Below, one piece after another: positions 8,958 to 26,512 of a DNA stretch of 36,064 bases. The notes beneath the pieces were generated by a model. It was not told where the DNA came from, made no database searches, and was given only the letters and a program-made list of their open reading frames with translations. How positions within the stretch are numbered: the first letter of the stretch is position 1; each line of letters begins with the position of its first letter. The stretch lies in contig JAJRXD010000111.1 of NCBI GenBank assembly GCA_024276465.1, positions 1-36,064 on the forward strand, read 5' to 3'. The DNA is from Deltaproteobacteria bacterium (GTDB lineage: Bacteria; Desulfobacterota; WTBG01; CAIYCZ01; CAIRTM01). The position numbers and the translations under genes are program-made.

Positions 8958-8988
8958 AAAAAAAAAGCCCGTGGTTAAAACACAGGCT
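8958..8988 (-). terminator. Intrinsic terminator upstream of the cytochrome gene
   Basis: On the minus strand the RNA reads an 8-base stem AGCCUGUG/CACGGGCU (one U-G pair) with a seven-base loop, followed by a run of nine U. It lies about 110 bases before the cytochrome start, on the same strand and with no gene upstream of it. It therefore either ends a small RNA or acts as an attenuator in the cytochrome leader. Confidence 0.7.
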
Positions 8989-9427: not shown

Positions 9428-10051
9428 ATGAAAGTTTCCTGGAACGGTAAAATAATATCTGTACAGCCCCGTATTCGACTTTTACGTTCGTTTGATGAGC
9501 GGAGCCATAACTACATGGGCTATGTTTTGTATGTTGCAGGGGAGATAGATGGGCAGAAAAGAGAATTTTCTGTTGGGATTTGAAAGGCAGCTTATGCAAA
9601 ATACGAGTTCAGAATTGGAGATATAATCAAAGGAGATTCTCATCCTGTGCTTGATAATCGAACTGAAATTGTAGAGTTTTATAAGGCAAGCAAACTGGAA
9701 ATAGTTGATCGTTCCGGTGATTCTGTTTTAAACCCACCACCATGGGTTGATGTTCTGCCTTCGCTTGAAGTTTACCGTGAGCGTAACCATCGCAGGCTTG
9801 ATTCACGTACATTTGATTCAAAATGCAGGCAGTGTATCTGGGGCTGTAAAATGCCGGTAGAAATCACTATTGATCAGTGGAAACCAGAAACAAAGCAGTA
9901 TAGAACCGAAACATTCTGCTATGGCCCTAAATCCTGTGAATTATATAAAGCAGGGCCAACAAGGAAAGTTCCAGGCATAAAAGGAATGACATGGGAAGAG
10001 GAAGACTGGGTTGATGAGGATGCTGTTTCACATCGTGAGATGGATGAATAA
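9428..10051 (+). pseudogene. Conserved hypothetical gene interrupted by one in-frame TGA
   Basis: From the ATG at 9428 the frame is open for 51 codons (MKVSWNGKIISVQPRIRLLR...), meets TGA at 9581-9583, and continues in the same frame to 10051, for 207 codons in total. The sequence on both sides is protein-like and well ordered. The C-terminal part carries a cysteine cluster (CRQCIWGC plus a further FCYGPKSC), suggesting metal binding, and an acidic tail. From memory of similar proteins, the expected residue at the TGA is Gly (GGA to TGA is one G-to-T change), but I cannot verify this. No clear selenocysteine insertion hairpin follows. An internal restart could yield only the C-terminal part. 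The next gene starts 27 bases downstream, so they may form an operon. Confidence 0.65.
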
Positions 10052-10078
10052 TTATGATAGATCGTAAGGAATTGAACA

Positions 10079-10429
10079 ATGATTGAATCATTTAAGTTCA
10101 GAGAGATCACAGTTGATGGTAAGACTTATTATAACGATATAATCATCTATTCAGACCATGTCCAGAGTGAATGGCGGAGAAGTGAAGGGCATAAACTAAC
10201 AAAAAAAGATATCAAAAAAATATTAACTGTAAAACCTGATATTCTGATGATAGGCACAGGTTATGGCGGGCTCAAAGTTCCTGTAGAAACAGAGGACTAT
10301 ATTAAATCTATGAAAATAAAATTGATGGTAGAAGAAACTGAAAAAATCTGTAAAAAATTTAATGAACTGTCAAAATCCAATAAAATTACCGGGCTGTTAA
10401 TAGGACCCTTAAATCGTTACGTTTGGTAA
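10079..10429 (+). CDS. Mth938 domain protein (NDUFAF3-like, DUF498)
   Basis: A 116-residue single-domain protein matching the Mth938/Xcc1710/NDUFAF3 family, the fold of a mitochondrial complex I assembly factor whose bacterial role is unclear. Visible family features are the opening FREITVDGKTY, the strand DIIIYSDHVQSEWRR, and the core PDILMIGTGYGGLKVP with its conserved GTGYGG loop. The length is normal for the family. It follows the TGA-interrupted gene by 27 bases on the same strand. The C-terminus (LLIGPLNRYVW) is somewhat different from the HLTC-type end I remember in relatives. Confidence 0.85.
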   Translation: MIESFKFREITVDGKTYYNDIIIYSDHVQSEWRRSEGHKLTKKDIKKILTVKPDILMIGTGYGGLKVPVETEDYIKSMKIKLMVEETEKICKKFNELSKSNKITGLLIGPLNRYVW

Positions 10430-10828
10430 CAGGAGTTTCCCCAAAAATTTCATAACAGATTAGGGATCAGTGCTCCTGAGTATTTAACGATGGAAGTAGA
10501 TACGTACTTTTCTTTGCTTGCTCCAAAGAAAAGTACCAAAAGAAAAGGCACTCCCGAGACAAGCCCGGGATCTTTGACCTGCTTTTTAGCCTGCGGCTTC
10601 CCGGCAAAGAGCATCTTAAAGCAGCGGGTCCAAAAACTCGCCACAACACAAAGGCCGTGCCTCAAACAGTTTGGACCCTTCATCTGCAGAAAGACACTCA
10701 TTGCCGGCTGCGGTGCAATGGGTTTAAAAAAAACAGTTTATCACCTGGTATTTCAGGGTTATTACTGCCATTATTGCCTTTAGTGAGATTTGATCCCTTT
10801 TTTCGGGGAAACTCCTGTATATAAGCAG
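10430..10828. repeat. Gene-free stretch resembling an interspersed repeat
   Basis: About 400 bases without a credible gene. It includes a perfect 13-bp inverted repeat GTACTTTTCTTTG / CAAAGAAAAGTAC at 10504-10516 and 10524-10536 with a seven-base loop. The following text (around 'cctgctttttagcctgcgg' and 'aaggccgtgcctcaaacag') looks like a sequence I have seen repeated in many proteobacterial genomes, always with the same hairpin at one end. Short frames through it are likely by-products. Confidence 0.45.
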
Positions 10829-10857
10829 TTGACAAGCAGCAGAAAATAATGGAAAAT
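10829..10857 (+). promoter_or_regulatory. Probable sigma-70 promoter of rnpB
   Basis: TTGACA at 10829-10834, a 17-base spacer, then GAAAAT at 10852-10857 (four of six matches to TATAAT). Position 10864, where the P1 helix of RNase P RNA begins, lies seven bases after the -10 element, as expected for a start site. Confidence 0.6.
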
Positions 10858-10863
10858 TTTCCA

Positions 10864-11239
10864 GCTGGAGCAGACTAAATGGTCGCTGGAACTTAACTTT
10901 AAGTTCTGGAGGAAAGTCCGGGCTCCACAGGGCAGGATGGTCGCTAACAGCGACTGGGGGTGACCCCAAGGAAAGTGCCACAGAAAATATACCGCCATGA
11001 TCAGGCCCAAACCTCTTTATGGTAAGGGTGAAAAGGTGAGGTAAGAGCTCACCAGTATTCAGGGTGACCTGAATAGCTTGGAAAACCCCATCCGGAGCAA
11101 GACCAAATAGGAGAGCTGGGTTGCCCGCCTTCATGCTCTCGGGTAGGTCGCTTGAGGCGTCTGGCAACAGGCGTCCCAGCTGAATGACCATTGCCTGATG
11201 TTTATCAGGAACAGAACCCGGCTTATTGTCTGCTCCAGC
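10864..11239 (+). ncRNA. rnpB: RNase P RNA, bacterial type A
   Basis: Catalytic RNA that trims the 5' leader from tRNA precursors. Conserved blocks are all present: GAGGAAAGTCCGGGCTCC at 10909-10926, CACAGGGCAGGATGG just after, AGAGCTCACCAG in the specificity part, the segment ending ATAGG, and ACAGAACCCGGCTTA at 11211-11225. The ends GCTGGAGCAGAC (10864-10875) and GTCTGCTCCAGC (11228-11239) pair to form helix P1, which fixes both boundaries. Length of about 376 bases is usual for type A. A short U run follows P1 and probably ends transcription. Open frames on either strand here are by-products of the RNA sequence. Confidence 0.97.
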
Positions 11240-11285
11240 ATTTTTAAATCCAGATTTTGCAGTACCGATTCTCGGAAAACGCGGC

Positions 11286-11408
11286 TTCCAGCAAAGTCAT
11301 CAGATTTGAACATGGAATAATGATTTTCCCCTTTGACATTCATTATTCCATGTTCGATATTCTTCGGTTCAAAGACTTTTTGAGATTTTATGGCTTGTTC
11401 CAGCAAAG
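11286..11408. repeat. Palindromic element flanked by 11-bp direct repeats
   Basis: A perfect 15-bp inverted repeat, GAACATGGAATAATG (11308-11322) and CATTATTCCATGTTC (11341-11355), is separated by 18 bases. The 11-bp sequence TTCCAGCAAAG occurs on both sides, at 11286-11296 and 11398-11408, and could be a target duplication. The element lies between rnpB and the glycosyltransferase start. It is open in the glycosyltransferase frame, so an apparent upstream extension of that protein is not real. Confidence 0.6.
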
Positions 11409-11442
11409 CCATTCTGTTTTCACCTCCACAAGGTTACAAAAC

Positions 11443-12153
11443 ATGTATGAAATTTCTTTGTCAGTTTTTTTTCCATGTTATAACGAAGAAAAAAATATTG
11501 AGGGGCTTGTGCTGGAAACAGTACAGGTTCTTAATGATCTGACTGAGAAATATGAAATTCTGATAATAAATGACGGCAGTACCGACAATACCGGCCCCAT
11601 TGCAGACAGATTAAGCCACAGGCATGAAAATATTCGCATTATTCATCATGAAACAAACAGGGGCTATGGCGCAGCACTGATTTCAGGTTTTGCCAACTCT
11701 GTTAATGACTGGATATTTTTTACTGACGGAGACAACCAGTTTTTTATAAAAGAAATTGCTCTGTTACTTGAAGAAACCCGTGCTCATGACGCAGTTATAG
11801 GATTCAGACAGGAAAGAAAAGACCCATGGTTCAGGAAAATTTATGCCAACACATGGAATTTGCTGGTTCGGCTGTTTCTGGATCTCAGGATAAAAGATTT
11901 AAACTGCGCCTTTAAACTTATTAAAAAAAAATCAATGGAAGGCATCAGTCTCAGCTCCTCGGGTGCATTGATAAGTGCTGAGATTCTGTTTAAATTAAAG
12001 CTTTCAGGGGCAAACATAAGTGAAGTTGCAGTATCCCACAAGCCCAGGCTGTATGGAGAACAAAGCGGGGGCAGCCCAAAGGTTATTTTAAAGGCATTGC
12101 TTGAGCTTTTCAGGCTGCACAGAGAATACAAACTTTTAGCCTCAAAACAATGA
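11443..12153 (+). CDS. Family 2 glycosyltransferase, polyprenyl-phosphate type
   Basis: A 236-residue GT-A fold enzyme like dolichol/polyprenyl-phosphate sugar transferases, which load a sugar from a nucleotide donor onto a lipid phosphate at the cytoplasmic membrane face. Visible features: VFFPCYNEEKNIE at 8-20, INDGSTDNT at 42-50, RGYGAAL near 73-79 and the metal-binding DGD at 95-97. There is no C-terminal membrane segment, as in the short DPM1-like forms. The ATG at 11443 was chosen because AAGG lies nine bases upstream and conserved sequence starts right after; the frame remains open upstream only through the palindromic repeat. It overlaps the next gene by four bases (ATGA), so the two are translationally coupled. 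Confidence 0.92.
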   Translation: MYEISLSVFFPCYNEEKNIEGLVLETVQVLNDLTEKYEILIINDGSTDNTGPIADRLSHRHENIRIIHHETNRGYGAALISGFANSVNDWIFFTDGDNQFFIKEIALLLEETRAHDAVIGFRQERKDPWFRKIYANTWNLLVRLFLDLRIKDLNCAFKLIKKKSMEGISLSSSGALISAEILFKLKLSGANISEVAVSHKPRLYGEQSGGSPKVILKALLELFRLHREYKLLASKQ

Positions 12154-14531
12154 CAGCCCTTCTGTTTCTGTTGTTTTCACTATGGATAGGCTTTGTAGTT
12201 GAAGACAGATTTGATTTTTTAGAAGAAAATTTTTGGGTAAAATTTTCATTTGCCATTATTGTCGGAACCCTGTTTTCCACATGGCTCACTTTTACCCTGT
12301 CCCTTCTTACCGGTTTTTCCGGATTTTCCCTGTTCCTCAGCATTTTATTAATGGCAATATATGTTTTTTACTCAGGGGTAAAAAACGGCAAAGGTATAGC
12401 CTGGTTCAGGCAAAAGGTTTTTCGAAACAAACGGATCTCTTTTGTCCACATGTTTCTTCTGCTGTTTATCATGCCGTTTTTTGTTTTTGGCGTTTGGGAA
12501 ACCAAAACAGGGGATATTCTTTACCTGGGTAACTATACTGATCTTTCTTACCATCTTTCAATTGTTTCTGCGTTTCTGGAACAGGTTGATTTTCTGCCTC
12601 AGAACCCTCAATGCGCAGGTGCAAAGATGAGCTATCACTTTCTTGTTAACTTCCATTCCGCGATACTTTGTTTGGGCGGCTTTAACCTGCTCCTGTCAGT
12701 CATCATCCCACAGATCATGTACTCCTTTGCTCTGGCAACAATGCTCTACTGTTTTTATAAACTGATACTGAAAAATGAATTGTCCGTTTTTTTCTCCTCG
12801 TCACTTCTCATTATGGGCCATATTGCCTGTTTCAACCTGCTTTTTGCCATTTTGGGATATCTCCCCCAGAACATTAAACTTGATTTCAGCTCATGGAACA
12901 GTATAAGGACTCTGATGCTTTACCCTTTTTTCAATTTCCTTGACCCTGTTATCAATTATTTTCACCCTCAACGACCTTTCCTGTTTGCTTTTCCCCTGGC
13001 CCTTATCCTGCTCACCGGAATATACAGGATGTTTCTTAAAGAAAAAACCGACTTCAAAACTCTTTCTTTTCTTACTCTTCTGCTTGGGCTGACCCCTCTT
13101 TTTCATATACATACTTTTATTGTTTTTGTTCCTGTGCTTGTTGTGGCTGCACTGTTCATGGGGGGTAATTATAAACGGACTTTTTTATCTTTACTCCCCT
13201 TAATGCTTGCTGCCGGGCAAATATGGTTTATTCTCTCACAACCTAAATCTCCCGGCTTTTCCGGATTTGATGTTCACAAATTAGGTGGTGGGCTTAAAGA
13301 TTTAAATATTTTAGATTCGGCTTTTTTATCAAGAGCTCTGTTTTGGGTAAGGGTTACCGGGTTTCCGTTGATTTTAGGGCTTGCCGGTTTTTTCTGTTTT
13401 TTATTAAAAAACAGAGGATTTTCACTGCAATCAGAGAAGGACAGAAAAAAAACAATTCTTTTGATCTTTTTTTTCATCCCCTTTCTTTTCTTTTTGTTAA
13501 TCAATTTCTACCGCTTTTCCCCAAGCTGGGGGGACAGCAACAAGTTTTTCTTATACTTTGAGGTAATCCTCTGCATCTTTGCAGGCAGCCTTCTTGGTTC
13601 ATGGTTTGAGAAAAACCGATGGGGGAAAGTTTTTTCAATAACACTGATTTTCATAGCAGCCTTAGGTCCTTCCCTGCTTGAAGCGTATGTGGTTATTTCA
13701 AGGTCCGGCAGCTTCCTGTTTTCTGCCTGTGATAGACGCGTTGCCCAATTGATCAGATTAAACACAGGAAAAGATGCTCTGTTTTTAACAAGCAATGATG
13801 TTATTCACTATGTTCCGTCTCTTGCGGGCAGGAGGGTGGTTGATGGTGCATATACCTGGAATACAGGATTCAGGAAACAGTGGACCGAAAAAGATGTGCA
13901 GAGAATCTACAAAACCGCGAGGCAGAGGCTTGTCAAAAAATATCATGTTACCCATCTGCTTATTGGGCCGCAGGAGAGGAGAAAATATACAATAACCGAA
14001 AAAGCTTTCGAAAAATACGAGCTTGTTTATAACGAGGTGTGTAACAACGAAAGTTATAAAATTTATGATGTTACAAAAAAGGTGGGGCAAAAAACCACGG
14101 TGCGCAAGAATTCATCCCCTGTTTATTTGAGCGATATGCAGCCTGTTGAAGCAGCTCAGGACTTTAAACCCCTTGAATTTAATACTAATATTAATGGTGG
14201 GCCGATAATTTTAAACGGAAGAAAATATGAAAAAGGACTTGGAGCACACGCCAATTCAGAAATTGTTTTCCGGCTTAACCGCAGGTTCACATATTTTGAA
14301 AGTGATGCTGGCCTTGATGATACTGAAGACAGGTCCCCTGGAAGCATAATTTTTAAGGTTTTAGCGGATGGGGAATTAAAGTACAAAACTCCTGTTATGA
14401 GATGGGACTCTGAAACGCATCACATAAAGGTAAACATAGAAGATGCGGAGGAGCTGACATTGATGGTCAGGGATGCAGGGGATGGTGATAAATGCGACCA
14501 TGCAAGCTGGGCAGGTGCTGTGGTATATTAA
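12150..14531 (+). CDS. Polytopic membrane protein (GT-C-like) with C-terminal NPCBM domain
   Basis: A 793-residue protein. The first 510 residues contain about 12 strongly hydrophobic segments, the plan of GT-C glycosyltransferases that use lipid-linked sugars. A soluble part follows, and residues of about 680-793 form an NPCBM (novel putative carbohydrate binding module): GRKYEKGLGAHANSEIV, ESDAGLDD, GSIIFKVLADG and VRDAGDGDKCDHASWAGA. The partner upstream could supply the lipid-linked sugar, and this protein could transfer it on the outer side of the membrane. I did not recognise a specific GT family motif, so the transferase role is inference from topology, coupling to the GT2 gene and the sugar-binding tail. 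Fusion of this tail to a multi-span protein is uncommon. Confidence 0.85.
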   Translation: MTALLFLLFSLWIGFVVEDRFDFLEENFWVKFSFAIIVGTLFSTWLTFTLSLLTGFSGFSLFLSILLMAIYVFYSGVKNGKGIAWFRQKVFRNKRISFVHMFLLLFIMPFFVFGVWETKTGDILYLGNYTDLSYHLSIVSAFLEQVDFLPQNPQCAGAKMSYHFLVNFHSAILCLGGFNLLLSVIIPQIMYSFALATMLYCFYKLILKNELSVFFSSSLLIMGHIACFNLLFAILGYLPQNIKLDFSSWNSIRTLMLYPFFNFLDPVINYFHPQRPFLFAFPLALILLTGIYRMFLKEKTDFKTLSFLTLLLGLTPLFHIHTFIVFVPVLVVAALFMGGNYKRTFLSLLPLMLAAGQIWFILSQPKSPGFSGFDVHKLGGGLKDLNILDSAFLSRALFWVRVTGFPLILGLAGFFCFLLKNRGFSLQSEKDRKKTILLIFFFIPFLFFLLINFYRFSPSWGDSNKFFLYFEVILCIFAGSLLGSWFEKNRWGKVFSITLIFIAALGPSLLEAYVVISRSGSFLFSACDRRVAQLIRLNTGKDALFLTSNDVIHYVPSLAGRRVVDGAYTWNTGFRKQWTEKDVQRIYKTARQRLVKKYHVTHLLIGPQERRKYTITEKAFEKYELVYNEVCNNESYKIYDVTKKVGQKTTVRKNSSPVYLSDMQPVEAAQDFKPLEFNTNINGGPIILNGRKYEKGLGAHANSEIVFRLNRRFTYFESDAGLDDTEDRSPGSIIFKVLADGELKYKTPVMRWDSETHHIKVNIEDAEELTLMVRDAGDGDKCDHASWAGAVVY

Positions 14532-14590
14532 ACCAGTTTGCAGGGGAAACAGAGATGCATCCCTGATTGGTGTGGCTATCTATCCCCGAA

Positions 14591-16870
14591 TCATTCCTCT
14601 ACAAATGTTTTGGGGATATCATTATCAATAACATAAATGCAGATCTGCTTGGACCCCTCTTCAGTGTACTGATGATTTCTTTTGAGGTTGCGCATGAGAA
14701 ATCTCACATCTTTTATTATTTTTTTATCATATGACTTGAACGCAGGTGTTCCATAGTCACGTATGGCGTTTCGGAAATTGTCATTCTCCAGAAACGGATT
14801 GAGCACATCCTCTTTCAAGTGGTGCTGATATTTTTCAAGCAATAGATTAAAAAGTGATGTCTGTTTGATATTTTTTCCACCTCCTATTTCAGCAGGAAGG
14901 GTTTTAGACGTATATTCTTTCTGCACATATTCTCTGAACCTGCTTCTCTCATCTTTATTGGCCCTGCCCAGGAGCTTGGTTTCAATATGGCTCAGGGAAT
15001 CCTCTGTTATCTCAATGTCTTCGCCAGTGTAAACGCAGCGGGTGGATGTGCCTAAATCAAAATTTATGGCAAAAAGATAATTCATGATTTCTTTGGCAAT
15101 TTCACGGTCATTATAGCTGTACAGGGACTGCTTGATCTCCTGCAGGACATTATAGTTATAAAGAGTTACCAGGGACTCAAGAAACTCCCTGGGAATCCTT
15201 CTGAACTCCTCCCTTTTTTCTTCAAAAAATTTGTAAATTTTTGACATGTCGGTCAAGCTGCCGTTTTTAGCGTACTTTGAATAAAATTCGCTGAACAGCT
15301 CAATTGATTTTCTGCCTGAAATACTGTTCTCATCCAGACCTTCCTTCTCTGACTCGCTGATGATCTTTTTTCGCCGTTTGGCCGTAAAGCTCTTCCTGTC
15401 CTCCTCTGCAATCCATGAAGGGATTCTGCCAGTATACAGCTCCATTTTCAGCAGCAGCAGATCCTCATCACAGTACCTGGTATATTTTTTAGGGTCATTA
15501 ATCCAGTCAATCATATTCTCTGATTTTCTGTTGAGGCGGGATGAAATTACAACTTTTGCAAAATTATCCAGCACCCTGGGAAGAAACTTCTCTGTAATTT
15601 CCCGTCCGAACTTTTTGAAATAAATTTCGACTTCAGTATGATAATCCAGGACATAGGGGATCGGTATCCGCATAACCCGGTCACCAAAAGACTTGACACT
15701 TTCCACTACATCCTTGTCCTCTGGGTTCATCAGCGTTATGAACAGCGAGTCAACTCTTTCCTCTATATGCTCGACCTTGTGTATGCTGTCACTGATAATA
15801 CCATGCAGGTTCATAAAGCGCTCTTTGTTATTGGATTTAACATCCATGATCGAATAAATACCATTATTTGTACGCGCATATTCCGAAAAAATATAGTGAA
15901 CCGCGTTGCTGTCATGCAGCAGCGTGTTTAACATCCTTTGCAGCACAGTATTGGTCAGAGCTTCCTTAATTACTTTATCCCCCGGGCTGTATACTGTTAC
16001 CCCCTCTCCAAGGCGGCGGTTAAACTGATACTTTCGAGCATAAAGCATTTTCAACACTCGCGCCGGAGAGCCCAGCTTGTCAAGAAGGGTCTGATACAGG
16101 GAAGTACAGATAGTGCAGAGATCATCTTTAAACACCCATTCAAATTCCTTTCTGTTAAAAAGGCGTTTTTTAAACTCATTATCTTTAATAATTTTCTGAA
16201 AAAAACTGCGCCGGTAATGCTTTGGAATAATAAGAATGGGGTTATCATGATTCGGGCAGGCAACTTCAAGAATATCAGAGGAAAACAGGAGATCACGGCC
16301 ATGTTCTGTATCTTCACCTGCCTGAGCATCATCAAAAATTCCTCCTGATGTCTTATGCCTCCTGGCAATTTCATCCAGGCTTCTAACACCGCCTAACTGC
16401 TTCTTGTCAAGCTTCCAGACAATCTCAAAGGTTAGACCATTGTCAGTATTGTTGTATTCTTCAAGCTTTAACAGCAGATTGTTAAGGAACGTGCTTTTCC
16501 CGCTTCCAGCCGGACCCTCAAAAATAAAAATCTTATTGCGCTGGGTACCTGCCCTGAAAGCCTTTGACAGATTCACAAGCCTGTTTGCAAACGGGGTATC
16601 AGCAAAAAAGGGATTGTCAGAACCATCAACAAACAGACGGGAGCAGTCATAATTGATAAAGTTAATGGAGTCCGGATCATCAGGATACTGGTCATAACCT
16701 TTTCCAATATAATCGTAAATCATATCGGAAAACATCTGGAAAACATTGCGAAACACATTATTGGGCCGATCAGAGGCAAACTGAATGAACTCATCAAAGG
16801 TAATGGGGGCATGCGCAGCAATTTCCTTCATTTTTAATTTAAGATCTTCTAATGCTTTTTCTACAGCCAT
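14591..16870 (-). CDS. Second PrkA-type AAA+ ATPase (YeaG paralogue)
   Basis: A 759-residue protein. Residues 80-180 hold the ATPase start with Walker A GPAGSGKST at 119-127. The motif CPNHDNPILIIP near 205-216 matches the CPxHxxP segment of PrkA proteins. The C-terminal half (from about 420) is helical. PrkA was described as a serine kinase; AAA+ protease activity has also been reported for the Bacillus protein, so its chemistry is unsettled. It is the last gene of the minus-strand operon, 14 bases after the SpoVR C-terminal part. It differs clearly from the other PrkA-like protein at 19888-21933, so the operon holds two paralogues at its two ends. A comparable pairing of two PrkA genes with YeaH and SpoVR is known from haloarchaea. 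Confidence 0.85.
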   Translation of the reverse strand: MAVEKALEDLKLKMKEIAAHAPITFDEFIQFASDRPNNVFRNVFQMFSDMIYDYIGKGYDQYPDDPDSINFINYDCSRLFVDGSDNPFFADTPFANRLVNLSKAFRAGTQRNKIFIFEGPAGSGKSTFLNNLLLKLEEYNNTDNGLTFEIVWKLDKKQLGGVRSLDEIARRHKTSGGIFDDAQAGEDTEHGRDLLFSSDILEVACPNHDNPILIIPKHYRRSFFQKIIKDNEFKKRLFNRKEFEWVFKDDLCTICTSLYQTLLDKLGSPARVLKMLYARKYQFNRRLGEGVTVYSPGDKVIKEALTNTVLQRMLNTLLHDSNAVHYIFSEYARTNNGIYSIMDVKSNNKERFMNLHGIISDSIHKVEHIEERVDSLFITLMNPEDKDVVESVKSFGDRVMRIPIPYVLDYHTEVEIYFKKFGREITEKFLPRVLDNFAKVVISSRLNRKSENMIDWINDPKKYTRYCDEDLLLLKMELYTGRIPSWIAEEDRKSFTAKRRKKIISESEKEGLDENSISGRKSIELFSEFYSKYAKNGSLTDMSKIYKFFEEKREEFRRIPREFLESLVTLYNYNVLQEIKQSLYSYNDREIAKEIMNYLFAINFDLGTSTRCVYTGEDIEITEDSLSHIETKLLGRANKDERSRFREYVQKEYTSKTLPAEIGGGKNIKQTSLFNLLLEKYQHHLKEDVLNPFLENDNFRNAIRDYGTPAFKSYDKKIIKDVRFLMRNLKRNHQYTEEGSKQICIYVIDNDIPKTFVEE

Positions 16871-16884
16871 GTTTCCATACCGCC

Positions 16885-17865
16885 CTACAAAATCTTTCGG
16901 GTTAACTTTCTGTCTTTCATCGTATACAACACTCTCTTTAACTCCGGCTCCGGCTCCCTGTCCTGGCCTGCACTGTCTCCTCTCATTTGAAGTTTTTCCT
17001 CATCAACCTCACTTGTTTCCAGCTTGACAGGTCCTCCATAGAGATATTCGATCCCCATCATGGTATTTCCAACATATTCCTTTACAAGGGGTTTGCCTTC
17101 ATAATGATGATTCAGGTAAATCTCGCCACCCTGCATTTTTGACTCTTCAATGGTAATAAACGGGGGATGATGCATGGAATCAATCACCATCTGTTTATAC
17201 TGCACGGCATCCCTGCTTTTAACATAATATTCCCATACACCCTTGCTTTGATTCAATCGCCTGCCAACTACAAACAGCTCGTATTTGTCTACAAAATCCT
17301 GGTCAATGTAATCATTTATAAACATAAAATCGCTGTAATTTCTTCTCAACTCGAACAGGTGACTCCTTCCCTCGCCAACATGCTCATCGTAATGTTTTCG
17401 CTGTTCGCTGTTCTGAATTTTTTGAAACTCATAGGAAAGCTTGCCCTTATCCACAAGATCTTCAACATGCATCAGTAGCCTCCACCCCAGAGCGTAAGGA
17501 TTAAGGCCAACACGCTGCATCTCTAAAACCCTTGCATTTACCTGAGCAAAATCAACCTCGTGGCCTTTTATGCGATCATCGCCTAAAAAAAGTTTTTCAT
17601 GCCAGTAGCTTGCCCATCCCTCGTTAAGTATTTTTGTACGGATTTGTGGCTGGAAATACATTGAAGTCCTGCGTACGATCTCAACGATGGATTTCATCCA
17701 CTCATTGCTTTTTTTGTTCAGGAACGTGGAATGCTCACTGATATAGCTGATCAAATCATTTGTCACTCTACCCGATGATTTTTTCCCTTCGGTTTCTTTC
17801 CTGAAAACAGCTTCAAACTCAGGGTACATTTTTTCAGCTTCTGAAAAGAATATTGCCTCGACCAT
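16885..17865 (-). CDS. spoVR: SpoVR family protein, C-terminal part
   Basis: This 326-residue frame is the C-terminal two thirds of a SpoVR/YcgB protein, a family of unknown biochemistry co-conserved with PrkA and YeaH. The signature NEGWASYWHEKLF and the segment RVGLNPYALGWRLLMHVED are clear. It lies in the same reading frame as the N-terminal part upstream; the 11 codons between the TAA and this ATG read RYNRCKKQFPD, which continues the protein sensibly. So the separate start is probably not original. No good ribosome binding site precedes the ATG at 17865; expression might depend on restarting after the TAA. The end is followed 14 bases later by the second PrkA-like gene. See the N-terminal entry. 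Confidence 0.85.
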   Translation of the reverse strand: MVEAIFFSEAEKMYPEFEAVFRKETEGKKSSGRVTNDLISYISEHSTFLNKKSNEWMKSIVEIVRRTSMYFQPQIRTKILNEGWASYWHEKLFLGDDRIKGHEVDFAQVNARVLEMQRVGLNPYALGWRLLMHVEDLVDKGKLSYEFQKIQNSEQRKHYDEHVGEGRSHLFELRRNYSDFMFINDYIDQDFVDKYELFVVGRRLNQSKGVWEYYVKSRDAVQYKQMVIDSMHHPPFITIEESKMQGGEIYLNHHYEGKPLVKEYVGNTMMGIEYLYGGPVKLETSEVDEEKLQMRGDSAGQDREPEPELKRVLYTMKDRKLTRKIL

Positions 17866-17898
17866 ATCCGGAAACTGTTTTTTGCATCTGTTATAGCG

Positions 17899-18522
17899 TT
17901 AAATTTCCTTGAAAAACTCACTTGAGGGAAGCTGTTTTATTCTGCCAAGGAATACATCGAAATAAAAATCAATCTTTTTAGATGATTTCATCTTTTGTGG
18001 AAAGTTTATCTCTGCAAGCTCGTCGTAAAATCCAACAAGATTGTCAATACCACGGGTAAATTCAATAACATAGTCAACCCACCTGCCTTTTTCCGATTTC
18101 AGGCTGGCAAGAAGACGTTTATCTGCCAGTGCAACGCCGGCATAATCGTCATTCCAGGTATGCCTGAACAGCGAATTGTTCTGAAAAAAGTCAATATGGG
18201 CCAGCACATGGTAAAAGATCATAACATTGAGCCAGTCAGGATTATTATCGTTATAAAAGGAGATGGCCGGTCGAGTGTTAATGACAGTTTCATAAGGGTT
18301 GTTCGGGTACAGCTCATAGATCTTCCTTTCCTGCAAAATACGAATATCGTGCACCCAGTAATCATACAGGGTGGGAATCATGTTTTTAGGAAACAGGTCC
18401 AGCAGGTCCCGGTTGGTCACAATATATTCCAGGCTTTCATCCTGAAACTGAAGGCCTGCTGCACGGGCCCTCTGTTTACACGTTTCCATTATTTTTTTTG
18501 TCCGCTGATCGATCAGCTGCAT
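17899..18522 (-). CDS. spoVR: SpoVR family protein, N-terminal part, ended by in-frame TAA
   Basis: A 207-residue frame with the SpoVR N-terminal features: YPNNPYETVINTRPAISFY, the segment NVMIFYHVLAHIDFFQNN with conserved His-rich pattern, and TWNDDYAG. It ends with FFKEI then TAA, after which the frame runs on without another stop to 16885. The whole would be 545 residues, near the usual 500-odd of the family. If the TAA were GAA (one G-to-T change) it would read KEIERYN. The ATG at 18522 was chosen because GAGAG lies eight bases before it. It follows the DUF444 gene by 67 bases. The stop may be a recent nonsense mutation, a sequence error, or a true split. Confidence 0.85.
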   Translation of the reverse strand: MQLIDQRTKKIMETCKQRARAAGLQFQDESLEYIVTNRDLLDLFPKNMIPTLYDYWVHDIRILQERKIYELYPNNPYETVINTRPAISFYNDNNPDWLNVMIFYHVLAHIDFFQNNSLFRHTWNDDYAGVALADKRLLASLKSEKGRWVDYVIEFTRGIDNLVGFYDELAEINFPQKMKSSKKIDFYFDVFLGRIKQLPSSEFFKEI

Positions 18523-18589
18523 TTTATAATCTCTCAAACAAATATTAACAACTGAACACAAGCACTCCGGCAGAGTTCACATGGATGGG

Positions 18590-19768
18590 TTATGACACCA
18601 GTTTCCTGACACCTTCAATTATCCTGTCCTGGTCAGATGTTACAGATATGGAGTCAACTCTGATTATCTTTTCGTCTTTCAACACACCCCCTTCCTTCAG
18701 GTACTGCTCTACAATGCTTTCCCCTGATGAATACATACCCTTTGCAATGGTAATCCCCATCCGGTTCACAAAGGCTAAAATCTTTTTGAGTTCCTGTATG
18801 GTTTCCTTTTTATCCTGATCCCAGTCTTCACCGTCAGTGCCCTGAAAAATATATATATTATAATCAGCAACAAGGTTTTCTTTCTGAACAATTGTATTGA
18901 CTAACTTGTATGCTGAAACAATTTTTGTACCCCCTGCAACGCTGGTACTGTGGTATGTATAGAAATCCTCAACCTCGCGGGCATGCTCATCATGCAGAAT
19001 AAAGCGCGTTTCCACATTATTTTTGTACTGAAACATCAGCCAGCTGTACATAAACAGGTGCTGAGAAACAACAAGATCGGTAGGTTTTCCGCTCATGGAA
19101 CCGGAGTAGTCCCTGACAAAAAACACTACTGCCTGGGACTCATAATCGCTCTCACGGGAAAGAGTTCTGTAAACTTTGTCTTTTGGCGCTACCATCAATC
19201 CTGACAGGTCTATATTCTGAATATCCGTGATATTTCCTAACGCAAGATTTGTTTCTATTATTTTACGCAGCGTTGCCTTTTTGTCGATAACCTGGCCATG
19301 GCCCAGATTCCGGTCAGTTAAATCATAGATATACTTTGTCAAAGACCGCTTCTTACCTTTATCCTTCAAATTAGGCAGCTGAAATTTTTCTGTAAGAACC
19401 CTGCCCAGTTCATATGCTGTGGATTCTATCTCATGCAGCACCTCGCCTGACTGACCCGAACCGGTCTCGCCTTCACCTTCCGTGGTATGGATAGGATCCT
19501 CAGCGATCACATCGTCTTCCCTGCCCTGTCCTGATCCTCCGGTCTCAAATTCATTCCCCAGCGGCCGGGTGTCATGAATGAATTTCTCTTCCACAACCGT
19601 AGGAACAACTACAACCTTTTTTTTTCCTTCAGGTGACGGTTTAACAAACCTGCCCAGGCGGATCTTCTTTGGAAACCCGTCCTCCTTTCTCCGCTCATCA
19701 CGCCGCAACAGCTCGTCAATGGATTTCAGGATATGCACATGGATCGGGCTCGGTGCTATCTTCTGCAT
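18590..19768 (-). CDS. DUF444 protein (YeaH/YhbH-like) with VWA domain
   Basis: A 392-residue protein of the DUF444 family, called YeaH in enterobacteria and YhbH in Bacillus, which works with PrkA/YeaG and SpoVR in starvation or sporulation responses. Visible parts are the basic N-terminus with RRDERRKEDG, an acidic low-complexity linker rich in Glu and Gly (about 75-115), and a VWA domain with the metal-site motif DYSGSMSGK near residue 220 and GGTKIVSA later. The ATG at 19768 was chosen since AAAGGA lies ten bases upstream; two earlier in-frame ATGs (19801, 19846) lack such a site. It follows the first PrkA-like gene by about 120 bases. A bacterial AAA+ ATPase next to a VWA protein usually indicates a physical pair. 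Confidence 0.9.
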   Translation of the reverse strand: MQKIAPSPIHVHILKSIDELLRRDERRKEDGFPKKIRLGRFVKPSPEGKKKVVVVPTVVEEKFIHDTRPLGNEFETGGSGQGREDDVIAEDPIHTTEGEGETGSGQSGEVLHEIESTAYELGRVLTEKFQLPNLKDKGKKRSLTKYIYDLTDRNLGHGQVIDKKATLRKIIETNLALGNITDIQNIDLSGLMVAPKDKVYRTLSRESDYESQAVVFFVRDYSGSMSGKPTDLVVSQHLFMYSWLMFQYKNNVETRFILHDEHAREVEDFYTYHSTSVAGGTKIVSAYKLVNTIVQKENLVADYNIYIFQGTDGEDWDQDKKETIQELKKILAFVNRMGITIAKGMYSSGESIVEQYLKEGGVLKDEKIIRVDSISVTSDQDRIIEGVRKLVS

Positions 19769-19887
19769 TATGCTGAGATCCTTTCTGTTTTCAACAGTCA
19801 TAAAGTATTGCACTGCAATGCAGCATCCCTGACAGGTTGTATGCATCGCGCCAGTGTCAACTCTGATATAAACTCATAAAAAACCCA

Positions 19888-21933
19888 TCAACTCTCACTG
19901 TCCTGCGTGCAGAAATACTCAATGGTTTTCTGAGCGCAGGTTCTGCAATACCCGATTTTATTTATCATACTGTCAATCATACGGTCATACAGCTTCTGGT
20001 TATCCTCATTTGTCCGGTTGGCAAGTGCACCCATCAAGCTTCCGGCACCTGCAACATCAGACTTCAGTTTAACGTCTGTAACAGCTTTTACAAGATTGAG
20101 GTTGTCCATAAAGTCATAATTGCGGTCAACAGAAACCTTCTGCCCGTAAATCTTCCGGATCGAATTTCTGAAGGTTTCCTTCTGTTCCTTTGTCTTCAGG
20201 CCCAGCCGGTCTTCAATGCTTTCCATATGTTTATTGTCAATTTTGACCGCTTTCAGCTCACCGGTTTGCGGATCCGTGTATTTCCACATGTTGTCTGGTC
20301 CCAGATTCTCCGCATCAACGCCAATGACCATGTTGACATAATTCATAACGTCTTTCCTGATTGCCTGGGGTTCATCCATATATGCATTGAATATTGCAAC
20401 CATAACCTGTTCACGGTACAGCCCCTTGGCAATTTTTAAATCTTCAAGATATTTTGCCCTGTCATTAGTATCAGTAACATAATCAAGCACAATTCTTTCC
20501 AGGCATTTGAATATTCCCTCGGCATACATGCATTTGCCCTCATTTGTCTCTGACATCTCTATTAAAAGCTGCATGGCTCTCCCGAGGTTTCTCTGTCCCA
20601 AACCTTTCTGTCCGAACCTTTTAGTTATATCCGGCTCATTATTGAGATCATCTATGACTTCTGTCAATGTTTTGATGCTTTTCTCTCCTGCTACTTCTCC
20701 GGCTCCAAGTTTCATCATCTCTATTGGCGTCAGCTTTTCAGACCGCGGCAGGCGAGTCAATGTAACCGCTACTGAAGCCGCATAGTTCAGATTGGGGTCC
20801 TGATGCAGGTCTTCCTTGGTAAGGGTTGTCTTCGCAGTGCTTCCGATGGCATATCCGGTCAGGTCTTTTTGCAGCAGGTAGTTTGTATTGTGTGCCACAT
20901 AACATATTCTGCACCGGTCAACAATCGGCGCCTCCTCCTTTTCGGCCACAAAACGGTTGAATTCAGCATTGTTGCTGGTTGCAATAATGAGCGTGTCAAT
21001 GGGCCACTTGTATCCGTCGATTTCGATATTCCTGTTCTGAATAACACCTAAATATACCTGCACAAGGTCTTTTTTGTTTTTAAAAATCTCATCGCTGAAG
21101 TGGATGCCCCCGCCAGCCACACGTGCCAGTGCACCTCTTCGCAGGTCAAAGCGGTAGGGATTATTAGTTTCCCTGATATGCAGAAGCCGCTGGATGGATT
21201 CTTCACCTAACAGATCAACAGCTGAAGATGTAATTTTGTCTCTGGCAGAGTATTTACCCGTTATGGTGCCCAGGCTGCCACTGATGGGTACTGGTACAAT
21301 TTCAATAAATTCCTTGATCCTGGATATGTCGTTATCGCAGTACATCCGAATATCATTCAATATAAAACTTGAACATGCCCCTAAAGGACGGTAGTTCATA
21401 TACAGGGTATCAATTTCCCTGTCACTGAATCCCGCACTTGAGAGAGCTTCCTTGTTCTGATCTGTTGATTCATATAAATTCATGGCCAGTATCACCGGAT
21501 CTTCATATGTCTGTGATCCTATTGTTGCAAACTGTCCATAAGTACCTATTTTATCAAGATTTTTGTACTGAAATGTGTGTTTTCTGTTTCTTTCTTCAGA
21601 AAGGAATTCGCGATACGCATCACAAAGATAATCAACAAAAAAAGTTTTTCCATTGCCCGGATCCCCAACCAGCACAAACGCCATTTCAGCGGAGGAGCCT
21701 CCTTCGGAAGCATCTTTCACATAGGAGACAAAGCTGTTTATTTCATCATACATTCCAATGATGTGCTTTCGCCCTTTTCTGAATATCTTGAAGTCAAATG
21801 TTGTTCTCCCGTCAACATTAACTTTTTCAATCATTTTCGAGTCCTGCAGGATCATTCTGGCAACAGCTTGGAAAGCATTTTCAAAAACTTTTGTGCCTTC
21901 TTTCACCTGGTTAATATACTCATCTAATGTCAT
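19888..21933 (-). CDS. prkA: PrkA-type AAA+ ATPase (YeaG-like), first paralogue
   Basis: A 681-residue protein. Walker A is GDPGNGKT at 90-97, and the sensor-like segment TLIIATSNNAEFNRF sits near residue 325. A segment with GKYSARDKITSSAVDLLGEESIQRL and DLRRGALARVAGGGIHFSDEIFK (before 310) matches the PrkA AAA core. The ATG at 21933 was selected because GGGAGG lies eight bases upstream; an in-frame ATG at 21981 has none. The C-terminus carries CRTCAQKTIEYFC, three Cys in a possible metal site, unusual for YeaG and worth noting. First gene of the operon PrkA-DUF444-SpoVR-PrkA2, so it likely sets operon expression. Kinase versus protease activity is unresolved for the family. Confidence 0.9.
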   Translation of the reverse strand: MTLDEYINQVKEGTKVFENAFQAVARMILQDSKMIEKVNVDGRTTFDFKIFRKGRKHIIGMYDEINSFVSYVKDASEGGSSAEMAFVLVGDPGNGKTFFVDYLCDAYREFLSEERNRKHTFQYKNLDKIGTYGQFATIGSQTYEDPVILAMNLYESTDQNKEALSSAGFSDREIDTLYMNYRPLGACSSFILNDIRMYCDNDISRIKEFIEIVPVPISGSLGTITGKYSARDKITSSAVDLLGEESIQRLLHIRETNNPYRFDLRRGALARVAGGGIHFSDEIFKNKKDLVQVYLGVIQNRNIEIDGYKWPIDTLIIATSNNAEFNRFVAEKEEAPIVDRCRICYVAHNTNYLLQKDLTGYAIGSTAKTTLTKEDLHQDPNLNYAASVAVTLTRLPRSEKLTPIEMMKLGAGEVAGEKSIKTLTEVIDDLNNEPDITKRFGQKGLGQRNLGRAMQLLIEMSETNEGKCMYAEGIFKCLERIVLDYVTDTNDRAKYLEDLKIAKGLYREQVMVAIFNAYMDEPQAIRKDVMNYVNMVIGVDAENLGPDNMWKYTDPQTGELKAVKIDNKHMESIEDRLGLKTKEQKETFRNSIRKIYGQKVSVDRNYDFMDNLNLVKAVTDVKLKSDVAGAGSLMGALANRTNEDNQKLYDRMIDSMINKIGYCRTCAQKTIEYFCTQDSES

Positions 21934-22286
21934 GGTCGTGTCCTCCCGAAAATTGGTATAGATAGCTTGCCTGTTCGTCAAAACTGTTATCGAACAATAA
22001 AACCAAATAATAAGAGAAAGCGTAAAATTTCTGACAGGTTTTGCAGATAAAATTCAGGAATGGGGTTGTTTTGACTGTTAATTTGATTACTGGTATGGCT
22101 TATTGATAAATCCGGGGGGTTATACTATACTGTCCTGTCACACACAAACTGATTTGAGATATCATTTCAGAACAAGGTTTTGCGCCGGGACAAACTCCAG
22201 GAAAGATTCTTATGTCTGACATGAAGATTTCTCAATCCCGGTCTGCGGGGCACCCTTGAAATAACAGCTGGATGTTGAAGATAACA
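21934..22286. other. Gene-free stretch upstream of the PrkA operon
   Basis: About 350 bases that must hold the promoter of the minus-strand PrkA operon and the end of the small-protein transcript. I looked for a sigma-54 type pattern and found none convincing; a TATAGTATAA-like string occurs on the minus strand near 22120-22130, but no matching -35 was fixed. Confidence 0.4.
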
Positions 22287-22622: not shown

Positions 22623-25490
22623 TTACCCTACAGCAGCCAGGGCTTCCAGTGGTAAGCGTTCAACTGCTTTAACCCTGTGAAACCTGCCTGCGCCAATCCG
22701 CGCTATTTCCCGTGCTGTTTTTTCACTTCCCTGATCTGGTTTTTCTTCGGGACAGATAAAAACAACGGAGATTTTAATATGTTTACGGCTGGTTTTCAAT
22801 GCTTCTGTTAAAGCATGCCGGGTCCCCATCTCCTGCTTTGCTTCCATGGTTGTCTGTCTTGAAAATTCTGCCACATGTTTGTGGTATGATCTGCTGTTGC
22901 AATCATCAGATAATGCAGCATTAGGCTGACCATCTGTGATGAGTATTATATATTTAAGGTTGCTTTGTTTATCTTTTAAAAGCATTTGGCGGGCACATGC
23001 CAGGCCGTTTCCAATATTTGTGTACTGTTCAGCCCTTAAAGTCATGGTGGCCTCAAAAAGAGGAGTTATCCTATCGCTAAGGGGAACCACCACTTCACCA
23101 AGGTTTGAAAAAGCAACAATTCCAACACGGTCCTGTTTTTCTATTGCTGCTTTGGACAGTTCTGCAACAGCCATCTTTGCATATCGCAGTTTTCCGTTTT
23201 CTTTCATGGACGCGGAAATATCAACACACACGGCTATATCAAGCTGGTTTGAAGGTTTTTTTTCAAAAGAGCGAAGATCCGTATAATTAATATCTTCAAA
23301 TTTCTTCCCTTTCCGGATAACACGGCGAAGTGTGTGTCTTATGGACAGATCTCTGAACACATCACCTCTTTTATATCTGCGCACTTCGGTTTTGTCTGCC
23401 TCGTGCTCACGCTGAAACGCCCTTTTTTCAAGAACATGACTCTCCTGTCGTCTTATAAGCCCTTCAAGAAGTCTTTCCAGCGAGAGATGGGAAAGGGTAA
23501 AACGTTTTTTTTCACCTGAAATATCGACCAGTCCTTTTTTTTCCAGCTTGTGAAGCACAATCTTGAGCTTTTCGTAATCCACTTTTTCCGGAGATACTTT
23601 AATTCCCCTGTTTTCATTTATTGTATAATGAACATAAAGATCTTCAAGTGAGGTGCTTGGAGATCTGCCCTCGTGCTGAAAGTCCATCATCTCTGCCAGC
23701 AGTTCTGTTTCTGCCTGGGGAGGCAGAAACATCTTGTCTTTGTCAAGACCCGGTGGAGCAGGAAAAGCCCTGGCATTTTTCAGTGCCCCGGCCATCTTCT
23801 CAGGTGAAATCTCCCTGCGGGAAAGAGACTCCTCAAGACCTCTTTCAATCCTGTCCCGCCCATCATGGCTAAGTGTTGCTTGCGAGGAATCAATCATTTC
23901 AAGGAAATTTCTCTCCTCCAGTTCATTTATAAGATCCTGGTAGTCCTGAAGCATATTATTTAAGAGGCCTTTGTCCATAGCATCCTTGAGAGCCTGCTGC
24001 ACAAGGGGATGCTGCATGGCCTGTTCTGCAAAGGCCGGGTCGTCAACAGGCATACCCTCCTCCGGAGAGAGGCTGCGGCAAGATGCTTCGGAAAGCCCCA
24101 TTAGAGCCTTTGAGACCTCATCGGGGGTTAATGGCCTGCGCTGCTCCACAGATTTCTCCTCAGCAGCAGGATACAGCGCAATCCCATAAATCAGCCTGCT
24201 GAATAAGCTTTTGAAGATCTCTTCTATGGTCTTGTCCTGACCCTGCCTTAGCCCTGTCCGGTGGCGAAAAGCAATGCAGGCAGACTGTGCAAGCCTTTGC
24301 CTGGTAAGTTCTCCCCGTAACAGGCCATAGCCCTGAGCAATTTCCCTTGTGGCAAGTGTTCCCCTGACACCAGGAGGACGCTCAACAAGCGGATGTTTTC
24401 GCAGAGCTGCTGCAATTGCAGATGAAATCTCATCAACTTCATCAAGGCCCAGTTTTTCATTCCTTTGCATCTCAAGAAATTTTTCTGTTGTCTTTTTTAT
24501 TTTTTCAGAAAGTTTGTTTGATGTTTGCTCAGGCTTTGTTTCTTCCCCGGAATTAACCGCCTGCATTTCATAGCAGCCGTCTGTCTGAGGTTCCAGAGGA
24601 CTGTAAAGCTCTGCAATTGCAGCAGGGTTTTTCCGGAATGTTTTAACTATGGATGGAAAATCAAGTGAATGTTTCATTTTGTAAAGGCTAAGCACAGGAC
24701 CTTTTCTCTGTTTTATTGCAGAAAGAAACCTGACAAGATCAAACATCCTGCTGGCAAGATAACATGACCTTGTAATTACGTCCTCACGTTCCATAACAAG
24801 ATTGATACCTGTGTTAAAAACCTGATCCATAAGGCTAATTGCCAGATTTTCAAGAGCTGTTAAGGAAACCCCGTTAATGTTTTCAGACAGGAACCGGCTG
24901 TGTGCTTTCTGAAGGAGCTGGTTAAAGGCAAACTGATATTCTGAGGGGACCGGGCGTGGGGGGGTATCCAAAGAAACCAGAGGAATTTTATTCTGGAAGC
25001 AAAACGCGGTAAGCTCCGGCAGGAAAGCCCCGGGCTGAAATATAAATTGTTCCACAACAGATGAATCTTTAATCAAAGCTATTTTTACGGGAAGCTCCAG
25101 TCCATAATAAAGGGAACAGGCATAATGCAGCGCAGCGCCTGTTTCTGCAGGAGAAGCATCAACAGCAATGACAGCCGGGCTGAGCCTTTTTATTATGGGG
25201 TTAAGGAATTTTACAACATTAATTCCTTCCGGGCAAAAGGGAGCGTAAAAAACTTCTCTGACTTTGCCTGACGTAATATTATCCGGGTAGCCTCCCCTCA
25301 TCCAGCAGGCAGCCATTTCAGCAAGATCCGGGCTGAGCTGACGCAGAAGAAACAGGGCAGAGGATGATGTGCGCTTTGAAGAAGGCAGTTTCATCCGGCG
25401 CAAAACACCGGCTTCTATACCAGGCAGCTTCATGTTTCTCTGTAAAGCTCCTCTCAGGTCATCTGTCGTTAAAGAAACCAGTGATTCCAT
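22623..25490 (-). CDS. Large VWA-domain protein, partner of MoxR ATPase
   Basis: A 955-residue protein. The C-terminal 205 residues (751-955) are a VWA domain with an intact metal site: DISAS at 757-761, Thr near 824 (YTNIG) and ITDGQP near 851-856. The central part (about 310-730) is long, charged and helical, with a winged-helix-like stretch near 640-690 (KIVLHKLEKKGLVDISGEKK). The N-terminal 280 residues contain a segment NPIIKRLSPAVIAVDASPAE that looks like an alpha/beta fold of the type found beside MoxR-VWA pairs (ChaN/DUF5682-like), but I cannot confirm it. It begins three bases after the moxR stop, so translation is coupled. The order AAA+ then VWA recalls the I and D subunits of metal chelatases and suggests a chaperone or metal-insertion complex. 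Confidence 0.85.
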   Translation of the reverse strand: MESLVSLTTDDLRGALQRNMKLPGIEAGVLRRMKLPSSKRTSSSALFLLRQLSPDLAEMAACWMRGGYPDNITSGKVREVFYAPFCPEGINVVKFLNPIIKRLSPAVIAVDASPAETGAALHYACSLYYGLELPVKIALIKDSSVVEQFIFQPGAFLPELTAFCFQNKIPLVSLDTPPRPVPSEYQFAFNQLLQKAHSRFLSENINGVSLTALENLAISLMDQVFNTGINLVMEREDVITRSCYLASRMFDLVRFLSAIKQRKGPVLSLYKMKHSLDFPSIVKTFRKNPAAIAELYSPLEPQTDGCYEMQAVNSGEETKPEQTSNKLSEKIKKTTEKFLEMQRNEKLGLDEVDEISSAIAAALRKHPLVERPPGVRGTLATREIAQGYGLLRGELTRQRLAQSACIAFRHRTGLRQGQDKTIEEIFKSLFSRLIYGIALYPAAEEKSVEQRRPLTPDEVSKALMGLSEASCRSLSPEEGMPVDDPAFAEQAMQHPLVQQALKDAMDKGLLNNMLQDYQDLINELEERNFLEMIDSSQATLSHDGRDRIERGLEESLSRREISPEKMAGALKNARAFPAPPGLDKDKMFLPPQAETELLAEMMDFQHEGRSPSTSLEDLYVHYTINENRGIKVSPEKVDYEKLKIVLHKLEKKGLVDISGEKKRFTLSHLSLERLLEGLIRRQESHVLEKRAFQREHEADKTEVRRYKRGDVFRDLSIRHTLRRVIRKGKKFEDINYTDLRSFEKKPSNQLDIAVCVDISASMKENGKLRYAKMAVAELSKAAIEKQDRVGIVAFSNLGEVVVPLSDRITPLFEATMTLRAEQYTNIGNGLACARQMLLKDKQSNLKYIILITDGQPNAALSDDCNSRSYHKHVAEFSRQTTMEAKQEMGTRHALTEALKTSRKHIKISVVFICPEEKPDQGSEKTAREIARIGAGRFHRVKAVERLPLEALAAVG

Positions 25491-25493
25491 TGT

Positions 25494-26512
25494 TTATTTT
25501 TTTGCCTGGTCAATTATTTTCTCAATGAGAATGCCCTGCTTTTCATAGTAACGGCTTTCAGTGCTTACAGCAAGCCGTCCCTCAAGAACCCGCCTGGCGG
25601 CATTTTCAACATCAGATTTTTTCACCTGGTTTGCATCTCTTAACCGGGCAAGTGACTGGGCCTGCTCATAGATGGAAAGGCTTGCACGAACGCTTGGAAG
25701 GCGTTCAAGTTCATCGGGCATGCTGCGGGCTGAATTGGAGATAGCCACAGACTGCCTGACCAAATTATCTGATTCCCTTACCCCCTCTATTTTCTTACCA
25801 TACTGTTGTAAAATCCTGACTTCATCCTCAAAGCCTGGATAGCCTATTCTTACCTGCTCAAACCTGTCAGACAGGGTCTCACTGACCCTTTCAGCCCCTG
25901 CATACTCCTCAGGATTTTCCGTTGCCACCACCAGTGTATCAACCTCAGAGGAGAAGTCAAAACCGGCTATTGTTGTAATTCCCTCCTCTAACACCTGAAC
26001 AAGGGTATTCTGGGTGCGCTGCGGGACACGGTTAAGTTCATCAACAAACAGGATTTTCCGGTGTGCTTTCTGGATTTTGCCGGGGGTAAAAGCTCGCGGG
26101 TCCTGTATTCCCATACGCATGGCAAGAACAGGATCAAGATCCCCCATCAGGTCCTCAGGCATCATTTCAGGAGAGCCCTGGATGCGGATAAACCGGTTAT
26201 CCCCTGTCACCTTTATTTTTTTCAGTTTTTTTCTGCCCCTGCAGTCAGGACATGCCGGTTTTTTTGGATAGCAGTTATATCTGCAGTCAGCTATGGTCTC
26301 CATTGATGGAAGCAGAGCAGCTATTATTCTTGCAACAGTGGTTTTTCCTGTTCCAGGAGGACCTTCCAGAAGAAGATGACGTCCTGCTACTAAAACAGCA
26401 AGTATTGCTTCACGGGTTAAGTCATCACAGTAAAAGCCCTCAAGCGGGTCCTCTTTTTTTTTATCTTTAAAAGTATTGCTGCCCGCAGTTCCTCTCTGAG
26501 TGTTTTGGCCAT
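25494..26512 (-). CDS. MoxR-type AAA+ ATPase, expressed through an apparent -1 frameshift
   Basis: The conserved part covers residues from about 45: LLLEGPPGTGKTTVARII (Walker A), LFVDELNRVPQRTQNTL (Walker B) and LVVATENPEEY (sensor). Between them a four-cysteine insert, CRYNCYPKKPACPDC, is a likely zinc site, as in some magnesium-chelatase-like ATPases. The only in-frame ATG (26303) would delete Walker A, and no other usual start exists in that frame before a stop at 26532. An ATG at 26512 with GGAG eight bases upstream lies in the next frame and joins the MoxR frame exactly if the ribosome slips -1 at A9 (26454-26462). The joined protein reads MAKTLREEL...LLKIKKKEDPLEGFYCDD, 340 residues. 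Without a shift the product stops at 26417 after 31 residues. It is followed at three bases by the VWA gene. Confidence 0.85.
26453..26459 (-). promoter_or_regulatory. Candidate -1 frameshift heptamer A AAA AAG in moxR
   Basis: In the frame of the ATG at 26512 the codons run ATA AAA AAA AAG AGG, so the heptamer A AAA AAG sits in the proper phase for tandem slippage, the same heptamer as in Escherichia coli dnaX. The -1 direction is the one needed to enter the MoxR frame (GAG GAC CCG). I see no strong stem right after it; RNA polymerase slippage on A9 or a simple sequence error are alternatives. Confidence 0.5.

Follow-up and report, generated by a model that had tools for sequence, protein, structure and literature searches.

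The window, meaning the whole stretch of DNA analyzed here, is the 36,064-nt contig JAJRXD010000111.1 of assembly GCA_024276465.1, and its coordinates are given for the forward strand. Open reading frame calls and Pfam searches located four genes on its minus strand, in the transcription order PrkA1, DUF444, SpoVR and PrkA2, with gaps of around 15–70 bases between them. This confirmed the arrangement proposed in a sequence-only reading, a PrkA-DUF444-SpoVR operon with two divergent PrkA paralogues at its ends. The first gene, PrkA1 (19888–21933, minus strand), encodes an E-type PrkA of 681 aa from an ATG at 21933, with a Shine-Dalgarno-like GGGAGGA read from the sequence directly 5' of it (21934–21952, minus strand). 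PrkA2 (14591–16870, minus strand) encodes a D-type PrkA of 759 aa. Both proteins belong to the PrkA family by their domains, as PF06798 and PF08298 scored above the curated Pfam cut-off of 25 bits in each (118 and 54 bits in PrkA1, 130 and 33 bits in PrkA2). The YeaH/YhbH-like DUF444 protein (18590–19846, minus strand, 418 aa) likewise belongs to its family, exceeding the cut-offs of PF04285 (121 bits) and of the NCBIfam model PRK05325.2-4 (601 bits, cut-off 421 bits). A profile search of the whole 4.1 Mb genome found these two PrkA genes only, and a putative third copy, the fourth and weak match of that search on contig C161, turned out to be Lon.

No signal of a sigma-54 promoter like that of E. 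coli yeaG was detected in 57 regions upstream of PrkA1. No conserved flanking gene stood out beyond the four either, the clustering being dominated by overlapping frames inside these genes. The window also contains a further AAA+/VWA pair 5' of PrkA1 (22623–26303, minus strand), consisting of a cobaltochelatase-like AAA protein and a 955-aa VWA protein, a bacterial RNase P class A RNA gene (10867–11240, plus strand; Rfam RF00010, 330 bits) and a large outer-membrane-type multihaem cytochrome with MtrC/MtrF-like and CXXCH domains (6301–8925, minus strand).

An in-frame stop codon in SpoVR

The SpoVR gene (16885–18522, minus strand) is interrupted by an in-frame TAA at 17899–17901, which had been missed in the sequence-only reading. 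Instead of one continuous reading frame, there is an N-terminal half (17902–18522) and a C-terminal half (16885–17865, with an ATG at 17865), both on the minus strand in the same frame and both above the cut-off of PF04293, which matched in two parts of 73 and 135 bits. When 75 SpoVR sequences including that of the window were aligned, the column of the stop was found to hold Glu in 55 of the 74 relatives and a stop in none, so that the TAA looks like a nonsense mutation of GAA in this genome, unless it is an assembly error. As nearly all positions invariant among the relatives are retained in the window (54 of 56 in the N-terminal half and 46 of 47 in the C-terminal half), the change must be recent or tolerated, or else an assembly error.

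Such a nonsense codon could also mean that the cassette here is a decaying relic, and this would agree with a scan of the phylum, in which neither PrkA1 nor PrkA2 was found in any of the seven further members of its family, as well as with single nonsense codons in the cassettes of two other MAGs, a TAA at a Glu site of PrkA1 (locus L060, 4844–4846) and a TAG in PrkA2 (locus L098, 1996–1998), both in frame. We consider decay quite improbable, since the other three proteins also keep nearly all of their invariant positions (258 of 272 in PrkA1, 99 of 104 in PrkA2 and 82 of 86 in DUF444), which implies that any decay would be recent. Moreover, the stop may be an assembly error, as said above, or the two halves of SpoVR may be produced separately, the ATG of the second lying 33 bases past the stop.

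ATP sites and candidate metal sites

Alignment of 57 PrkA1 sequences revealed an invariant ATP site (57/57) formed by Walker A GDPGNGKT (K96), Walker B FSDE (D281 and E282, the codon of the latter at 21088–21090, minus strand), sensor-1 N321 and an arginine-finger D339-R340 pair. The corresponding residues of PrkA2, each found in 84 of 84 sequences, are Walker A GPAGSGKST (K125), an Asp at the Walker-B catalytic position (D343, codon at 15842–15844, minus strand), sensor-1 N382 and arginine-finger D397-R398. Thus, while the Walker A Lys, the sensor-1 Asn and the arginine-finger Arg are invariant through the 57 PrkA1 and 84 PrkA2 sequences together, the Walker-B catalytic position is always Glu in PrkA1 and always Asp in PrkA2. 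Canonical PrkA carries Glu there, like PrkA1, and because Asp replaces this catalytic Glu of the family in all 84 sequences, we refer to PrkA2 as a degenerate, Asp-type relative. Asp can support slow ATP hydrolysis, so PrkA2 may nevertheless be active.

In a profile alignment, the Asp of PrkA2 falls on the Glu of the solved canonical PrkA 9xip, and in the predicted model of PrkA2, whose ATPase core is of moderate confidence, a strand ends just before D343. Foldseek searches with this model gave weak matches only (E 0.01 or worse), and fold comparison returned generic AAA+ and other P-loop ATPase folds with Z of 7–8, 9xip not being among the matches listed. As the AlphaFold2 model of PrkA1 was poor (pLDDT 50) and the PrkA2 core only moderate, the assignment of the active-site residues rests on sequence alignment.

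The location of these fixed, asymmetric residues in the AAA+ site also bears on the biochemical role of the family, for which conflicting kinase and protease activities have been reported. PrkAs might be mainly serine/threonine kinases with a regulatory AAA+ part, the second copy being a second kinase or a pseudokinase, and in line with this are the historic annotation of the family, the Pfam name of its C-terminal domain and the requirement of the presumed kinase residue K426 of YeaG for its phenotype (PMC4664914). That same work found that YeaG requires its AAA+ residues and that, under nitrogen starvation, mutants of yeaG resemble those of yeaH (PMC4664914). On the other hand, purified B. 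anthracis PrkA formed oligomers with ATP, did not autophosphorylate, showed no detectable kinase or protease activity and has a kinase-like part devoid of the P-loop (PMC13001217). Together with the position of the residues that distinguish PrkA1 from PrkA2, this makes a primary kinase function very improbable.

Two candidate cysteine sites were also recognized. PrkA1 ends in the cluster YCxTCAxKTIEYFC, whose C663, C666 and C675 are invariant in the 57 sequences. This cluster had been pointed out in the sequence-only reading as possibly metal-binding; it is real, but a YCxxCA end is present in many ordinary PrkAs, which makes it a trait of the family and not of this paralogue in particular. 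The other is a candidate metal site in PrkA2 (16106–16258, minus strand), CPxH ... CxxC, formed by C205, H208, C252 and C255 and conserved in 84 of 84 sequences, which PrkA1 lacks and PrkA2 shares with a number of canonical PrkAs. Some canonical PrkAs have both CPxH/CxxC and the C-terminal YCxxCA, whereas each paralogue has just one of them, PrkA2 the former and PrkA1 the latter, a pattern suggestive of a division of the two candidate sites between the paralogues, although these sites are gone from further PrkAs, YeaG among them. With respect to DUF444, a DYSGS ... GGT ... D pattern conserved in 63 sequences (D246-S250, near 19097–19111, minus strand) is consistent with a VWA-type metal site. 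Structure searches found no solved structures of SpoVR or DUF444 relatives.

Distribution of paired PrkAs in bacteria and phages

In a phylogenetic tree, PrkA1, PrkA2 and canonical PrkA formed separate, well supported clades, those of PrkA1 and PrkA2 with full support, on very long stems of about 3.4–4.4 changes per site, which rules out a recent duplication. A genome scan with the PrkA2 alignment yielded at least 428 relatives, and the best 80 were mostly from Desulfobacterota and also included MAGs labelled KSB1, Aminicenantes, Gemmatimonadetes or Myxococcota, as well as Bacterium UASB270. Within 394 genomes of the phylum of the window, PrkA1-type proteins were detected in 29 and PrkA2-type proteins in 28, all of the latter within the former, and PrkA2 alone in none (Fisher p 5e-42, shared ancestry not being corrected for). 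The sole genome with PrkA1 and without PrkA2 was G303, in which PrkA1 is cut by a contig end. The order PrkA1, DUF444, SpoVR, PrkA2 was found in 59 of 83 fetched bacterial cassette loci, most of the others being cut by contig ends, and the gap between SpoVR and PrkA2 in the 59 ordered loci was mostly below 120 bp. The deep divergence of the two PrkAs, as first proposed, is therefore borne out, and the deep split, the conserved order and the co-occurrence in 28 of 29 genomes are the opposite of a recent duplicate without conserved linkage. A second PrkA had also been described as unusual for bacteria; in this cassette it is the rule, and in another phylum an unlinked second PrkA is common, as described below. 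Exceptions to the arrangement were G402, with a lone PrkA2 and neither PrkA1 nor SpoVR found, and G141 and G247, with split arrangements. One contig (L024, 3–11283) carries two cassettes in tandem.

The two paralogues evolve at different rates, with mean pairwise identities of 81 percent for PrkA1 vs 64 percent for PrkA2 and mean distances of 0.22 vs 0.51. The distances of the four cassette proteins correlate with each other (r 0.77–0.85), which fits inheritance as one unit and does not imply contact.

Pairs of one Glu-type and one Asp-type PrkA were also detected in other arrangements. A second kind of four-gene cassette in the same phylum (L021, L112 and L114) has the order PrkA, DUF444, SpoVR, PrkA-like, with Glu in the first PrkA and Asp at the Walker-B position of the last. 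Its first PrkA groups with canonical PrkA (support 94/99) and scores 370–379 bits with the canonical profile, and its last PrkA, of about 835–875 aa, belongs to a different clade from PrkA2. A scan of 190 genomes from the phylum of G407, whose NCBI name places it in Myxococcota, found canonical PrkA in 106 and a second PrkA of about 750–830 aa in 80, both being present in 76, so that 4 of the 80 Asp-type genomes had no detected partner. In the pairs examined there (including L153, L155, L157, L159 and L161–L190) the second PrkA is distant from the canonical three-gene set, and in 30 sampled proteins of each kind it carried Asp in 30/30, with Glu in 30/30 of the canonical PrkAs. Constraining all three Asp types to group together cost 0.1 log-likelihood (p-AU 0.48), and, judged from these trees, the Asp-type PrkAs may be one ancient lineage.

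These data bear on the chief rival to a joint machine, in which PrkA1 and PrkA2 would each build a homo-oligomeric AAA+ machine of its own, with DUF444 or SpoVR in common or with different substrates, their joint transcription serving dosage or timing only. Their separation into clades on long stems, the unequal evolutionary rates, the unlinked second copies in another phylum and the lone PrkA2 of G402 would all suit such independence. However, neither the near-perfect co-occurrence of PrkA1 and PrkA2 in the phylum nor the recurrent pairing of one Glu with one Asp, needless for independent machines, would be expected from it, and we judge this alternative rather unlikely.

Whole cassettes were also found in phages. 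A T4-like tailed-phage contig (L136, IMGVR_UViG_3300033148_005213, 7986–16971) carries PrkA1, DUF444, SpoVR and PrkA2 in this order with small ORFs between them; a DNA primase and an exonuclease adjoin the cassette, and the contig also encodes a major head protein, a head protease, a tail sheath and a baseplate. All four genes are present in a second viral contig (L146, IMGVR_UViG_3300024259_000075, 8019–15406), where a gene for a ClpP-like protease (10092–10655) separates PrkA1 from DUF444, which might hint at a motor able to feed a protease. A third contig (L137, IMGVR_UViG_3300009149_008416, 6359–12714) has a major head protein gene with SpoVR and the PrkA pair of the second cassette kind close by, and a 595-kb phage record (L138, 8533–14011 of LR756511.1 335000–358000) carries the canonical PrkA-DUF444-SpoVR set; canonical PrkA is present in Thermus phages too. 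The phage copies keep the Glu and Asp residues. The presence of whole cassettes in phages, one of them with the ClpP-like gene inside, suggests that the module matters during infection.

A putative two-part motor and its relation to known systems

The asymmetry between Glu and Asp and the near-perfect co-occurrence of the two PrkAs favour a hetero-oligomer, and we propose with moderate confidence, from comparison of sequences, that the four genes encode one hetero-oligomeric AAA+ remodelling machine. In this scheme PrkA1 and PrkA2 would assemble into a mixed ring, with PrkA1, which has the full Asp-Glu Walker B, as the hydrolysing subunit. PrkA2 would bind ATP and supply an arginine finger, its Asp in place of the catalytic Glu leading to slow or no hydrolysis, and would set the asymmetry or the regulation of the ring. 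The VWA-like DUF444 protein would act as adaptor and link the ring with its target, as in MoxR-VWA pairs; the target or effector would be SpoVR, in a pathway probably acting in stress or starvation, as for YeaG-YeaH. A mixed ring whose ATP sites differ, together with a VWA adaptor and a SpoVR effector, would account for the co-occurrence, the gene order and the fixed residue difference, although co-inheritance would likewise produce correlated distances and shared operons. In line with this scheme are the division of the candidate Cys sites, the oligomers that B. anthracis PrkA forms with ATP (PMC13001217), and the AAA+ requirement of YeaG and the similarity of yeaG to yeaH mutants (PMC4664914), whereas the unlinked Glu and Asp copies in the phylum of G407 and the lone PrkA2 of G402 speak against it. 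This particular genome may have the machine without an intact SpoVR. A broader version, in which the paired PrkAs of bacteria and phages in general form a two-subunit AAA+ motor with a hydrolysing Glu type and an Asp-type partner, the latter maybe one ancient lineage travelling with the DUF444-SpoVR module, phages included, is put forward more tentatively, as possible but on balance doubtful.

The stress and sporulation genes PrkA, DUF444 and SpoVR are widely conserved. Given the conflicting activities reported, a natural pair in which one copy has and the other lacks the usual catalytic residue makes their biochemical role a testable question. If the system is a two-part motor, PrkA1 and PrkA2 should form a mixed ring, and swaps at PrkA1 E282 and PrkA2 D343 should show whether ATP hydrolysis drives it. 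As judged by the open-access literature, the three-gene PrkA-DUF444-SpoVR set and the haloarchaeal double PrkA are known, and the bacterial four-gene cassette and its Glu/Asp pairing, of which we found no description there, appear to be new.

The closest known system is the canonical PrkA/YeaG-DUF444-SpoVR set, whose three families and their order recur in the window and in L019, L020, L102 and others, and which shares the AAA+ plus PrkA C-terminal architecture with both paralogues. The cassette of the window differs from it by the addition of an Asp-type PrkA after SpoVR and by the loss of the CPxH/CxxC residues from PrkA1. Neither paralogue is a YeaG by the equivalog NF011999 (cut-off 576 bits), with which PrkA1 scored 45 bits and PrkA2 gave no match, and no NCBIfam family recognizes PrkA2. 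The haloarchaeal precedent named in the sequence-only reading is real: haloarchaea have two adjacent PrkA genes, always with DUF444 and SpoVR genes (PMC3102087), whereas in the 59 ordered loci here the PrkA genes flank DUF444-SpoVR; plasmid searches yielded no haloarchaeal sequence, the comparison being made with the published description. The second four-gene cassette shares the layout and the Asp in its last gene, and differs in the canonical-like first PrkA and in the clade of the last.

MoxR-VWA pairs such as RavA-ViaA also consist of an AAA+ ATPase and a VWA-type partner, and given the metal-site pattern of DUF444, the PrkA-DUF444 pair resembles them. The window system would work like these pairs without being a member of them, since it has another AAA+ subfamily, the PrkA C-terminal domain, SpoVR and two paralogous ATPases. 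Finally, in some heterodimeric ABC transporters one ATP site is degenerate, with Asp for Glu, so that paralogous ATPase subunits carry one Glu and one Asp as in the cassette; their fold and function are unrelated, and the likeness is one of analogy only.
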